This document shows, piece by piece, positions 17,786-20,481 of a stretch of DNA of 64,000 nucleotides. The stretch covers positions 1 through 64,000 of the forward strand of contig JANQIW010000080.1 in NCBI GenBank assembly GCA_028281945.1, written 5' to 3'. The stretch is from Prochloraceae cyanobacterium PL24a_bin.78 (GTDB lineage: Bacteria; Cyanobacteriota; Cyanobacteriia; Cyanobacteriales; JANQIW01). The notes beneath the pieces were generated by a model. That model searched no databases, had not been told where the DNA came from, and was given only the letters and a program-made list of their open reading frames with translations. Made by a program: the position numbers and the translations under genes. The stretch's first letter is position 1; each line of letters opens with the position of its first letter.

Positions 17786-18220
17786 ATGCTTGAGCCATTA
17801 GCAGCAGGTGCGATCGTTAAATTAGCTTTTGAAACTGGAATTAAAGGCGTTGTTGGGAAGTTAACTGAAGCAGCGATTAACAAAGGGAAAGAACTTTGGA
17901 ATGCAATTAAGGCTAAATTTGCAGGAAATCCTATGGTAGAAAATGCTATTAAAAATGCAGAAGAACAAAAATCTATGGAAGAAAATGTAGAGAATCTTTT
18001 AACTTCTTCAGTGGATTTTGCTATGAAAAACGATCGTCAATTTGCCGAACAAATACAGAATATTGCCCAACAAATAAATAAAGAAATTAATTCTAGCTCT
18101 CAAGATAGCAATACCATAAATGTTAATGCTAATGATGAAGCTAACGTTTTGAATAATCAAGCTAGAGAAATAAAAGGACAAAATAATGATTTTAGTAGAG
18201 GGAAAACTATAAAAAAGTAA
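17786..18220 (+). CDS. N-terminal domain ORF of an NB-ARC/TPR (NLR-like) protein
   Basis: This 144-aa ORF has a good AAGGA site 8 bp before its ATG. Residues 1-45 are an Ala/Gly-rich amphipathic segment (LAAGAIVKLAFETGIKGVVG). A Lys/Glu helix and a coiled stretch (MEENVENLLTSSVDFAMKN) follow, with an Asn-rich tail. I recognise no catalytic motif; N-terminal signalling domains of this general look occur on cyanobacterial NB-ARC proteins. The last sense codons and the stop are ATA AAA AAG TAA, which contains the slippery heptamer A AAA AAG. The NB-ARC frame continues in -1 from exactly this point, so the ORF is probably the first part of a longer protein and also a short product in its own right. 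Confidence 0.7.
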   Translation: MLEPLAAGAIVKLAFETGIKGVVGKLTEAAINKGKELWNAIKAKFAGNPMVENAIKNAEEQKSMEENVENLLTSSVDFAMKNDRQFAEQIQNIAQQINKEINSSSQDSNTINVNANDEANVLNNQAREIKGQNNDFSRGKTIKK

Positions 18221-18258
18221 GAGAAGGTAGTGTTATAGAAAAAAATTATGGCACTATC
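18197..18258 (+). promoter_or_regulatory. candidate programmed -1 ribosomal frameshift signal
   Basis: In order: AGAGGGA (18197-18203, Shine-Dalgarno-like), 7 nt, the in-frame heptamer A AAA AAG (18211-18217), the zero-frame stop TAA (18218-18220), and after an 8-nt spacer a 7-bp stem GGTAGTG / CACTATC (18226-18232 with 18252-18258, one G-T pair) with a 19-nt loop. These are the same parts, in the same order, as in the E. coli dnaX frameshift site. A -1 slip enters the NB-ARC frame with GTA at 18217. Confidence 0.6.
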
Positions 18259-20481
18259 AACATCAACTATAACTATTACAAACCTCTCAAAACAGAAACA
18301 GAAAACGGAAAAGTTGTCTCTTATTTTGGAATTTCATTCCATCGAAATCCCTTTTTTACCGGACGTAAAAGCATATTAAACAGCTTACACGAAAAACTAA
18401 GTAAAGAAGGAATGACAGCAATCAATCAAGTAGAAGCAATAAGTGGATTAGGAGGTATAGGCAAAACACAAACAGCCATAGAGTATGCTTACCGCTACCA
18501 TTACGATGAAACCTTTTATGAATGGGTATTGTGGGTAAACGCAGATACAGAAATTAATCTCAATCAAGATTTTGGGAGAATAGCACAACAATTACAATTG
18601 CCTGTATTTGGAGAAAAGTTAGAGGAACAAATTGAAGCGGTGCATCGATGGCTCAATACTCATGAGAAATGGTTATTGATTTTCGATAACGCAGATACTC
18701 CTAAATGGTTAAAAAAGTTTATTCCTACCAATCCTAAAGGAAAAATTCTCATTACTTCTAGAGCATCAAGGTTCGATATGGTAGGTGTAACTAAACCAAT
18801 TGTACTTTCTTCTTTAGAACCAAATGAAGCGGTGGATTTCTTATGCAAAAAAACAGGCTTTGAGTCTTCAGAATCTAACAAAGCCGCTGCTTTAGAGTTG
18901 GCAACGGAATTGGGATTTTTACCATTAGCTTTAGAACAAGCTGGAGCATATATCCTAGAGCTTCAAATTCCTTTTAAAGAATATCTTGAAATATATCGCA
19001 AAAAACGCCTAGAGCTTTTAGAAGAACCTCCAGATTTTTTAGAAGAGGATGAACCATTAGTAGAGAATTATCCTACTTCAGTTTTGACTACTTGGTCTAT
19101 GAATTTTCAAGCAGTAGAAAAGGCTAATAAAGCTTCTGCTGAATTACTGCGTTTTAGTGCTTTTCTTGCCCCAGATGCTATTCCCTACGAATTGGTACTT
19201 AAAGGTGCTTCTGAATTAGGGGAATCTATTGCAACAGCTTTAGATCTTCAAGATAAAGATGTTGAGGAAGGTTTGATTGATCTGCTTAAATTATTAAAAC
19301 CTATTGCTAACTATTCTCTGATTAACCGACAGTCTGAGATTTATTGTTATAGTATTCATCGAATGGTTCAAGAAGTTTTGCGCGATCGTATGGATACTGA
19401 AACCCAAAAGACTTGGGTGAGGCGATCGATTTCAGCAATGGAGCCAGCAACTTCTGATATAGGTATTTCTGAAATTTGGAGACACTACGCTCCATTTATA
19501 TCTCATAGTATAACAGTTGTTGAGTGGGCTAAGCTTCAAAGATATGAATCTCTATCTCTAGCATCATTATTAAACAAAGTAGGCTACTATTTAAATGAAC
19601 AAGGAAGATATACTGAAGCAGAATATTACTTGAGACAAGCCTTAAAAATCACAAAGCATCTGTCTAAAGGAAATCATTCTGATGTTGCCACAAGTTTAGG
19701 TCTTTTAGCTTTCATTTATAATAATCAAGGGAAATACAGTGAAGCAGAACGGTTCGGGATTGAAGCCTTAGAAATGCATAAGCGTCTATTTAAAGGAGAT
19801 TGTATTGAAGTGGCTCTGTCGCTAAACAATTTAGGTCTTATATACGATAACTTAGGGAGATATACTAAAGCAAAAGTTCTCTTTCAACGAGCATTGGAAA
19901 TGAGAAAACGTCTTTTTGAAGGAGATCATATTGAAGTAGCTACTAGCATTAATAATATAGCTATAATATATGATCATCAAGGGAGATACAGTGAAGCAGA
20001 AGCCTTCTATATTCAAGCCTTAGAAATGTCTAAGCGTCTATTTAAACAAGATCATCCTCGTAAGGCTACTTTTCTAAATAATTTAGGCTATCTCTATAAT
20101 AAACAAAGGAAATACAGTGAAGCAGAACTCTTTTTAATCCAAGCCTTGGAAATGAGAAAAGGCCTTTTTGAAGGAGATCATTTCCATGTGGCTATTAGCT
20201 TCAAAAATTTAGGCATAAACTATAGAGATCAAGAGAGATATTCTGAAGCAGAACCTCTTTTAACTCAAGCTTTGGAAATGACAAAACGTCTATTTAAAGG
20301 AAATCATCCTCATCTGGCACAAAGCCTAAAGGAATTAGGAATATTCTACCATAAACAAGGAAAGTACGATCAAGCAAAACCTTTATATATTGAGGCCTTA
20401 GAAATGGCTGAGAGAGCATTAGGAGTAGATCATCCTAATACTCTAAGCATTCGTGAAAACTTAGATTCATTAAAAGAGTAG
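18217..20481 (+). CDS. NB-ARC ATPase with C-terminal TPR repeats (NLR/STAND-like)
   Basis: The open frame runs from 18199, but the first ATG is at 18412, inside the conserved leader that precedes NB-ARC (NPFFTGRKSILNSLHEKL, about 18343-18393). No ATG, GTG or TTG lies in frame before it, and that ATG has a GAAGG only one base away. Counted from 18412, the P-loop is GLGGIGKTQTA (about 12-22), Walker B is WLLIFDNAD, and the GLPL-type motif is FLPLALEQAGAY. Then come a winged-helix region and about seven 42-residue kinesin-light-chain-like TPRs (about 395-680), of the form GRYSEAE..QALEM.KRLF. The full frameshift product would be about 898 aa. STAND proteins of this kind act as switch ATPases, some in phage defence; the role here is unproven. 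Confidence 0.8.
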   Translation, partial: VREGSVIEKNYGTININYNYYKPLKTETENGKVVSYFGISFHRNPFFTGRKSILNSLHEKLSKEGMTAINQVEAISGLGGIGKTQTAIEYAYRYHYDETFYEWVLWVNADTEINLNQDFGRIAQQLQLPVFGEKLEEQIEAVHRWLNTHEKWLLIFDNADTPKWLKKFIPTNPKGKILITSRASRFDMVGVTKPIVLSSLEPNEAVDFLCKKTGFESSESNKAAALELATELGFLPLALEQAGAYILELQIPFKEYLEIYRKKRLELLEEPPDFLEEDEPLVENYPTSVLTTWSMNFQAVEKANKASAELLRFSAFLAPDAIPYELVLKGASELGESIATALDLQDKDVEEGLIDLLKLLKPIANYSLINRQSEIYCYSIHRMVQEVLRDRMDTETQKTWVRRSISAMEPATSDIGISEIWRHYAPFISHSITVVEWAKLQRYESLSLASLLNKVGYYLNEQGRYTEAEYYLRQALKITKHLSKGNHSDVATSLGLLAFIYNNQGKYSEAERFGIEALEMHKRLFKGDCIEVALSLNNLGLIYDNLGRYTKAKVLFQRALEMRKRLFEGDHIEVATSINNIAIIYDHQGRYSEAEAFYIQALEMSKRLFKQDHPRKATFLNNLGYLYNKQRKYSEAELFLIQALEMRKGLFEGDHFHVAISFKNLGINYRDQERYSEAEPLLTQALEMTKRLFKGNHPHLAQSLKELGIFYHKQGKYDQAKPLYIEALEMAERALGVDHPNTLSIRENLDSLKE

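Follow-up and report, generated by a model that had tools for sequence, protein, structure and literature searches.

How is an NLR-type protein produced when its reading frame opens inside the end of a preceding gene and offers no start codon ahead of its conserved nucleotide-binding (NB) leader? This question is raised by a locus of Prochloraceae cyanobacterium PL24a_bin.78, located in the 64,000-nucleotide stretch of DNA that was analysed as a whole (hereafter the window). On its forward strand, ORF1 (17786-18220) encodes a 0-frame, effector-like product of 144 aa, predicted to be all-helical and to end in an Asn/Gln/Ser-rich C-terminal tail. The last codons of ORF1 read ACT ATA AAA AAG TAA, so that a slippery heptamer A_AAA_AAG (18211-18217), in phase for a -1 slip, is immediately followed by the 0-frame TAA stop (18218-18220). 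Also, 7 nt separate the heptamer from an upstream Shine-Dalgarno-like AGAGGGA (18197-18203), a possible stimulator. Two stops, TAG TAG at 18193-18198, close the -1 frame, which then stays open from 18199 to 20481 on the same strand (760 codons) and would be translated from 18217 after the slip. Pfam searches assigned NB-ARC (PF00931, 18373-18954, E 9e-14, 51.7 bits against a cut-off of 23.5), DUF7779 and TPR families to this ORF, which meets the criteria of an NLR-type STAND NTPase (NB-ARC/P-loop plus C-terminal repeats); the P-loop GLGGIGKT (18445-18468) falls within the NB-ARC domain. The NPFFTGR leader of the NB domain (approximately 18346-18366) is located 5' of the first possible start codon, the earliest ATG/GTG/TTG of the -1 ORF being the ATG at 18412, past the leader and before the P-loop. 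The predicted slip product is 898 aa long (144 + 754). The initial annotation, made from sequence alone, had described this ORF1 end and its slip phase, a -1 frame leading without a stop into the leader, P-loop and TPRs with no start codon before the leader, and two products of 144 and about 898 aa; all of these held, the first to the exact base and the last as predicted sizes only, no product having been measured.

The best explanation is a conserved programmed -1 frameshift at the effector/NLR boundary, a reading considered very likely (probability of about 0.87) in the absence of protein, ribosome-profiling or reporter data. The heptamer of the window is by itself weak evidence, because the source genome is AT-rich: AAAAAAGTAA occurs 152 times in it, against 99 for the reversed control, and shuffling yields an in-phase heptamer in the overlap at p ~0.10. 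The case for frameshifting therefore rests on homologues.

Searches with ORF1 profiles and one NLR as queries, after which the junctions were read, showed that ORF1 homologues are short ORFs directly 5' of NLR-type ORFs. The plasmid tblastn with the ORF1 of the window as query gave no matches. Start-less effector/NLR junctions of -1 layout, collected by protein similarity and frame layout and not by the presence of a heptamer, amounted to 15 loci in 11 cyanobacterial genomes. A canonical in-phase X_XXY_YYZ heptamer occurs inside the overlap of 4-18 codons in 14 of the 15, against 1.28 expected from shuffling, and in only 3/90 other ORF1 ends taken as control; the exception, L347, has an A_AAG tetramer only. 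Treated as independent, the loci give P ~3.5e-16 for this excess, a value that is overstated since several of them are paralogues and the 15 do not represent independent events.

Four ORF1 homologues occur elsewhere in the source genome (G000), whose assembly is a draft of 176 contigs. Three of them precede an NTPase-type ORF that lies in the -1 frame and lacks a nearby start, at A_AAA_AAG_TAA in L045 (C126) and L046 (C108) and at T_TTC_CCA_AAG in L047 (C129, reverse strand); in L044 (C64) a UGA separates ORF1 from an NLR in the same frame. The sensors vary among these loci, from the NB-ARC/TPR protein of the window to a NACHT-like P-loop protein in L045 and others, indicating that the junction recurs with different downstream proteins. 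The 11 further -1 loci belong to ten other genomes (G023, G162 with two, G117, G045, G168, G586, G598, G609, G605 and G591, the last one broken). The A_AAA_AAG_TAA arrangement is common to the window, L045, L046, L258 and L307. In other cases the letters of the heptamer change and slipperiness is kept, as in L308 (G_GGA_AAG) versus L336 (G_GGA_AAC), or L340 and L342 (G_GGA_AAG) versus their homologue L344 (C_CCA_AAG). The -1 peptide just past the heptamer is also kept (GKGTSPDEI in L340, GKGLSPDEI in L346, PKELSPDEI in L344), and divergence between homologous pairs falls mostly at codon position 3 in ORF1 and in the -1 ORF alike. The layout, the slippery sites, their conservation and the coding constraint on both frames are thus shown. 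In the broken locus, L346 (G591, C560), the slip site is intact and the NLR frame is interrupted after 88 codons, which likely reflects a decaying copy or an assembly indel.

Two rival explanations bear on these data. One could invoke an error in the assembly, or a gene in decay that was recently disabled by a frameshift, given the draft assembly, the location of the heptamer at a homopolymer, the fast turnover of NLR genes and the broken L346. This is very unlikely: the same arrangement is found in 11 genomes and in four loci of the source genome, the -1 ORFs are intact for hundreds of codons and both frames are under coding constraint. Alternatively, transcriptional slippage in the A6 run could add or drop an A in some of the mRNA and give rise to the same two proteins. 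Runs of 6-7 A are indeed present in the window, L045, L046, L258, L307 and L315; such runs are short for efficient polymerase slippage. Against this option, L308, L340, L342, L336, L317, L344 and L047 lack a long homopolymer and keep a tandem-slip heptamer, making it very improbable as well.

A third possibility is that effector and NLR are two separate genes, the NLR being made from a non-standard start codon near the stop, through coupling or termination-reinitiation. Indeed, the commonest layout among ORF1 homologues is a separate NLR gene with an ATG a few bases from the stop, often in the -1 frame, from which the window could derive by loss of the ATG, and L085, a locus of this separate type, apparently uses CTG instead of ATG. 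However, most of the 15 loci have no ATG, GTG or TTG ahead of the NB leader once the slip site is passed, L047, L340 and L342 have none before the P-loop either, and in nearly all loci the -1 ORF has its first Met past the P-loop (residue ~180-318 in most); the lack of usable starts is thus shown. Furthermore, coupling requires no slippery heptamer, yet 14/15 loci have one, and the NLRs of separate-gene loci carry their own copy of a motif, described below. Separate initiation is accordingly held to be very unlikely. Programmed frameshifting, by comparison, satisfies three of its criteria: an in-phase heptamer in the overlap, a downstream frame without an initiation site and conservation under two-frame selection. 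Recurrence among homologues, retention of the slip site, two-frame constraint and the late first Met together exclude a one-off mutation and make independent initiation unlikely.

Fused forms of the domain also exist. In L351, which counts in favour of the frameshift reading, an ORF1-type domain, the stretch after the stop and a P-loop protein are naturally joined in a single frame. In L352 (G185, C478) an ORF1-type domain continues in the same frame into a predicted membrane segment and WD40-like repeats, and the P-loop motif is absent.

Regarding stimulators of the -1 slip, a 13-bp hairpin (18226-18238/18246-18258, forward strand) begins 8 nt past the heptamer of the window and is a candidate for this role. 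Its minimum free energy is -12.9 kcal/mol (z -2.56), with 4/200 shuffles as good, and the 60-nt segment has a structure z of -4.1. The same 5' arm can alternatively form an H-type pseudoknot (18226-18271, forward strand; S1 18226-18233/18251-18258, S2 18234-18238/18267-18271), better than 299/300 dinucleotide shuffles. Across the -1 loci downstream structure has a mean z of -0.6 and reaches clear significance in three only, those of the window, L308 and L340; a general hairpin or pseudoknot behind all frameshift sites was therefore rejected, its support being limited to a few loci. Rfam searches matched no family, either at nine related loci or at the window itself, where the best E of 4.4 fell far short of the cut-off. 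The upstream Shine-Dalgarno-like stretch also occurs in paralogue L045 (AGGGGG) and is not general. As to the initial annotation, its AGAGGGA held in the window without being a general feature, and the spacing of its 7-bp stem held, the stem being longer than stated and a strong one not general. Its overall reading, a dnaX-like programmed -1 frameshift, is supported by the homologues as only the rarer of two recoding solutions. It was to be refuted if all close homologues were single-frame genes with no slippery site, which is not the case given 14 further two-frame loci.

The other solution is found in the many ORF1 homologues that end in UGA and are followed in the same frame by the NLR, with no start for ~50-190 nt. 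A genome scan with a 48-nt model of the post-UGA region recovered 77 sites in 62 of 390 cyanobacterial genomes. All 71 inspected sites of this model combine a stop (70 UGA, 1 UAG) with a same-frame open downstream ORF, and 63/71 have the UGAC context. The element contains a pseudoknot whose S1 stem, of 5 bp, begins after an 8-nt spacer from the stop; S1 pairs in 97.7% of cells, against 80.1% when shuffled, and covaries (0.548 versus 0.210, 0/500). S2, formed between the loop and downstream sequence, pairs better than 2000/2000 permutations (z -3.9), its variants including GGAGU/ACUCC, UUUGGU/ACCAAA and GCGC/GCGC. In order to remove circularity, a second model was built without the stop. In 30/30 inspected matches of this model an in-frame stop occurs exactly 6 nt upstream (27 UGA, 3 UAG and no UAA) and both ORFs are open. 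An Rfam search with the element gave no match. Incorporation of selenocysteine at these UGA codons was rejected, because SelA is absent from 12/12 element-bearing genomes searched, including the source genome, while the E. coli positive control was detected. The layout fits type II stop-codon readthrough, in which a conserved pseudoknot lies a fixed distance past a leaky in-frame stop and both ORFs share one frame; readthrough itself is inferred and has not been measured. If recoding, inferred from the sequences, occurs at both kinds of junction, UGA readthrough is the commoner and -1 frameshifting the rarer. This second form of inferred recoding at the junction also counts in favour of the frameshift reading.

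Loci with the readthrough pseudoknot comprise L158-L227 and L044 (62 genomes). In L259, L260, L262, L267 and L278-L295 the UGA is associated with other hairpins (tgaCTGCTGGTAGTCAACCAGGG, tgaCTGGCGGATCTGCACGCAAAAGCAGACGC), subtypes that fall outside model R1. The element also occurs in named finished plasmids of Nostoc sp. UHCC 0870 (L376), Nostoc sp. C057, Acaryochloris sp. 'Moss Beach' and Calothrix brevissima NIES-22, and all plasmid records with a homologous domain and the element are cyanobacterial. These four records show two genes, the second annotated from a TTG or GTG 75-117 nt past the stop. For the NLRs among L376-L379, the annotated starts lie within the conserved NB leader or beyond it, probably a systematic N-terminal truncation of the downstream protein. 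In L377 (C. brevissima NIES-22 plasmid4, 2501-2550) the UGA element precedes an annotated CHASE2-domain sensor and not an NLR, suggesting that the element is modular.

A possible role for recoding is suggested by a motif shared between effector and sensor. The last 45 residues of ORF1 were compared with the first 50 of the NLR, with a score of at least 40 required. At separate-gene loci a motif is common to the ORF1 end and the NLR start in 29/46 pairs, against 12% of permuted pairs (z 12.7), as exemplified by QGRDQINIETIQGN and YGRDQYNVEYVQGN of L156. None of the 69 readthrough loci shares such a motif, a contrast that also favours the frameshift reading, and recoding thus probably replaces the duplication. 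The inference drawn is that recoding places ORF1 and its motif on the sensor, making a duplicate motif unnecessary; that it does so as a substitute for the duplication seen in amyloid-templating effector/NLR pairs is probable, by analogy. The ORF1 tail of the window, NSSSQDSNTINVNANDEANVLNNQAREIKGQNNDFSRGKTIKK, is Asn/Gln/Ser-rich like the motif tails of separate-gene loci, its amyloid nature not having been shown. In L047, a nearly identical sequence occurs three times in the effector tail (LNTFGKIGDNATIQTGGNKTEYNFPKQ), in a manner reminiscent of repeated prion-motif units.

Under the frameshift model, ribosomes would initiate at 17786 and most would terminate at the TAA at 18218, releasing the free 144-aa protein. 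Some would slip back one base on A_AAA_AAG, aided by the stop codon together with the downstream hairpin or pseudoknot and perhaps by AGAGGGA, and would produce the 898-aa effector-NLR fusion. The fusion would act as sensor and would share with the free effector the assembly motif at the effector C-terminus; for this reason the activated, oligomerised fusion could seed polymerisation of the free effector, by analogy with HET-S/NWD2 and with bacterial BELL/BASS pairs. The occurrence of slippage, its rate and its purpose are inferred. The proposal, already made in the initial annotation as a new way of setting the ratio of free effector to sensor, that this ratio would be fixed by the slip rate remains an inference as well, one that we favour by a modest margin. 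A bolder reading, leaning only slightly towards acceptance, is that cyanobacteria make general use of recoding where effector meets NLR, through two unrelated routes, so that one prion-like motif would serve an abundant effector and a rare sensor fusion in a ratio fixed by the recoding rate.

If this is true, the stoichiometry of an immune sensor and its effector would depend on ribosome behaviour, not on separate genes, and would shift upon a fault in translation or interference by a phage. It would also account for the use of one signalling motif by effector and NLR without duplicating it, would suggest that annotation pipelines remove the N-terminus from a class of bacterial NLRs, and would establish, in cellular genes of bacteria, programmed stop-codon readthrough at a conserved pseudoknot as a widespread class. 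The loci reported here provide a list for reporter work.

No report of recoding in bacterial STAND/NLR genes was found in the literature searched, an earlier mention in the original BASS paper (Dyrka 2020) not being excluded. Several known systems offer parallels. In filamentous bacteria, BELL/BASS-NLR two-gene amyloid signalosomes are encoded by genes that adjoin or overlap (PMC7889193). The loci described here resemble them in the small helical-looking protein encoded beside an NLR in cyanobacteria, in the adjacent or overlapping genes and, at separate-gene homologues, in the motif common to the effector C-terminus and NLR N-terminus. Unlike them, the NLR of recoded loci has neither its own motif nor its own start and is expected only as a recoded fusion. 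In the window, the frameshift model predicts no second copy of the motif. The BELL domain is a helical bundle with a hydrophobic helix; ORF1 of the window matched no Pfam family, and helices are predicted in it by a single-sequence AlphaFold model of low reliability (pLDDT 51). Retroviral readthrough of the MuLV type relies on a stop codon and a pseudoknot 8 nt downstream. The UGA class resembles it in its leaky stop, 8-nt spacer and H-type pseudoknot, with S1 covarying and S2 supported, but is found at cellular cyanobacterial NLR junctions, with UGAC (63/71) instead of UAG and another pseudoknot sequence, not in Rfam. Finally, A_AAA_AAG is named as the dnaX frameshift site (PMC5009743), and the window shares with dnaX the heptamer, a 5' Shine-Dalgarno-like stretch, a 3' hairpin and two predicted products from one start. 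It differs in that its relatives also use G_GGA_AAG/AAC and C_CCA_AAG, often without strong structure, and in the nature of its predicted products, the short one being an effector-like domain and the long one the fusion of effector and NLR.
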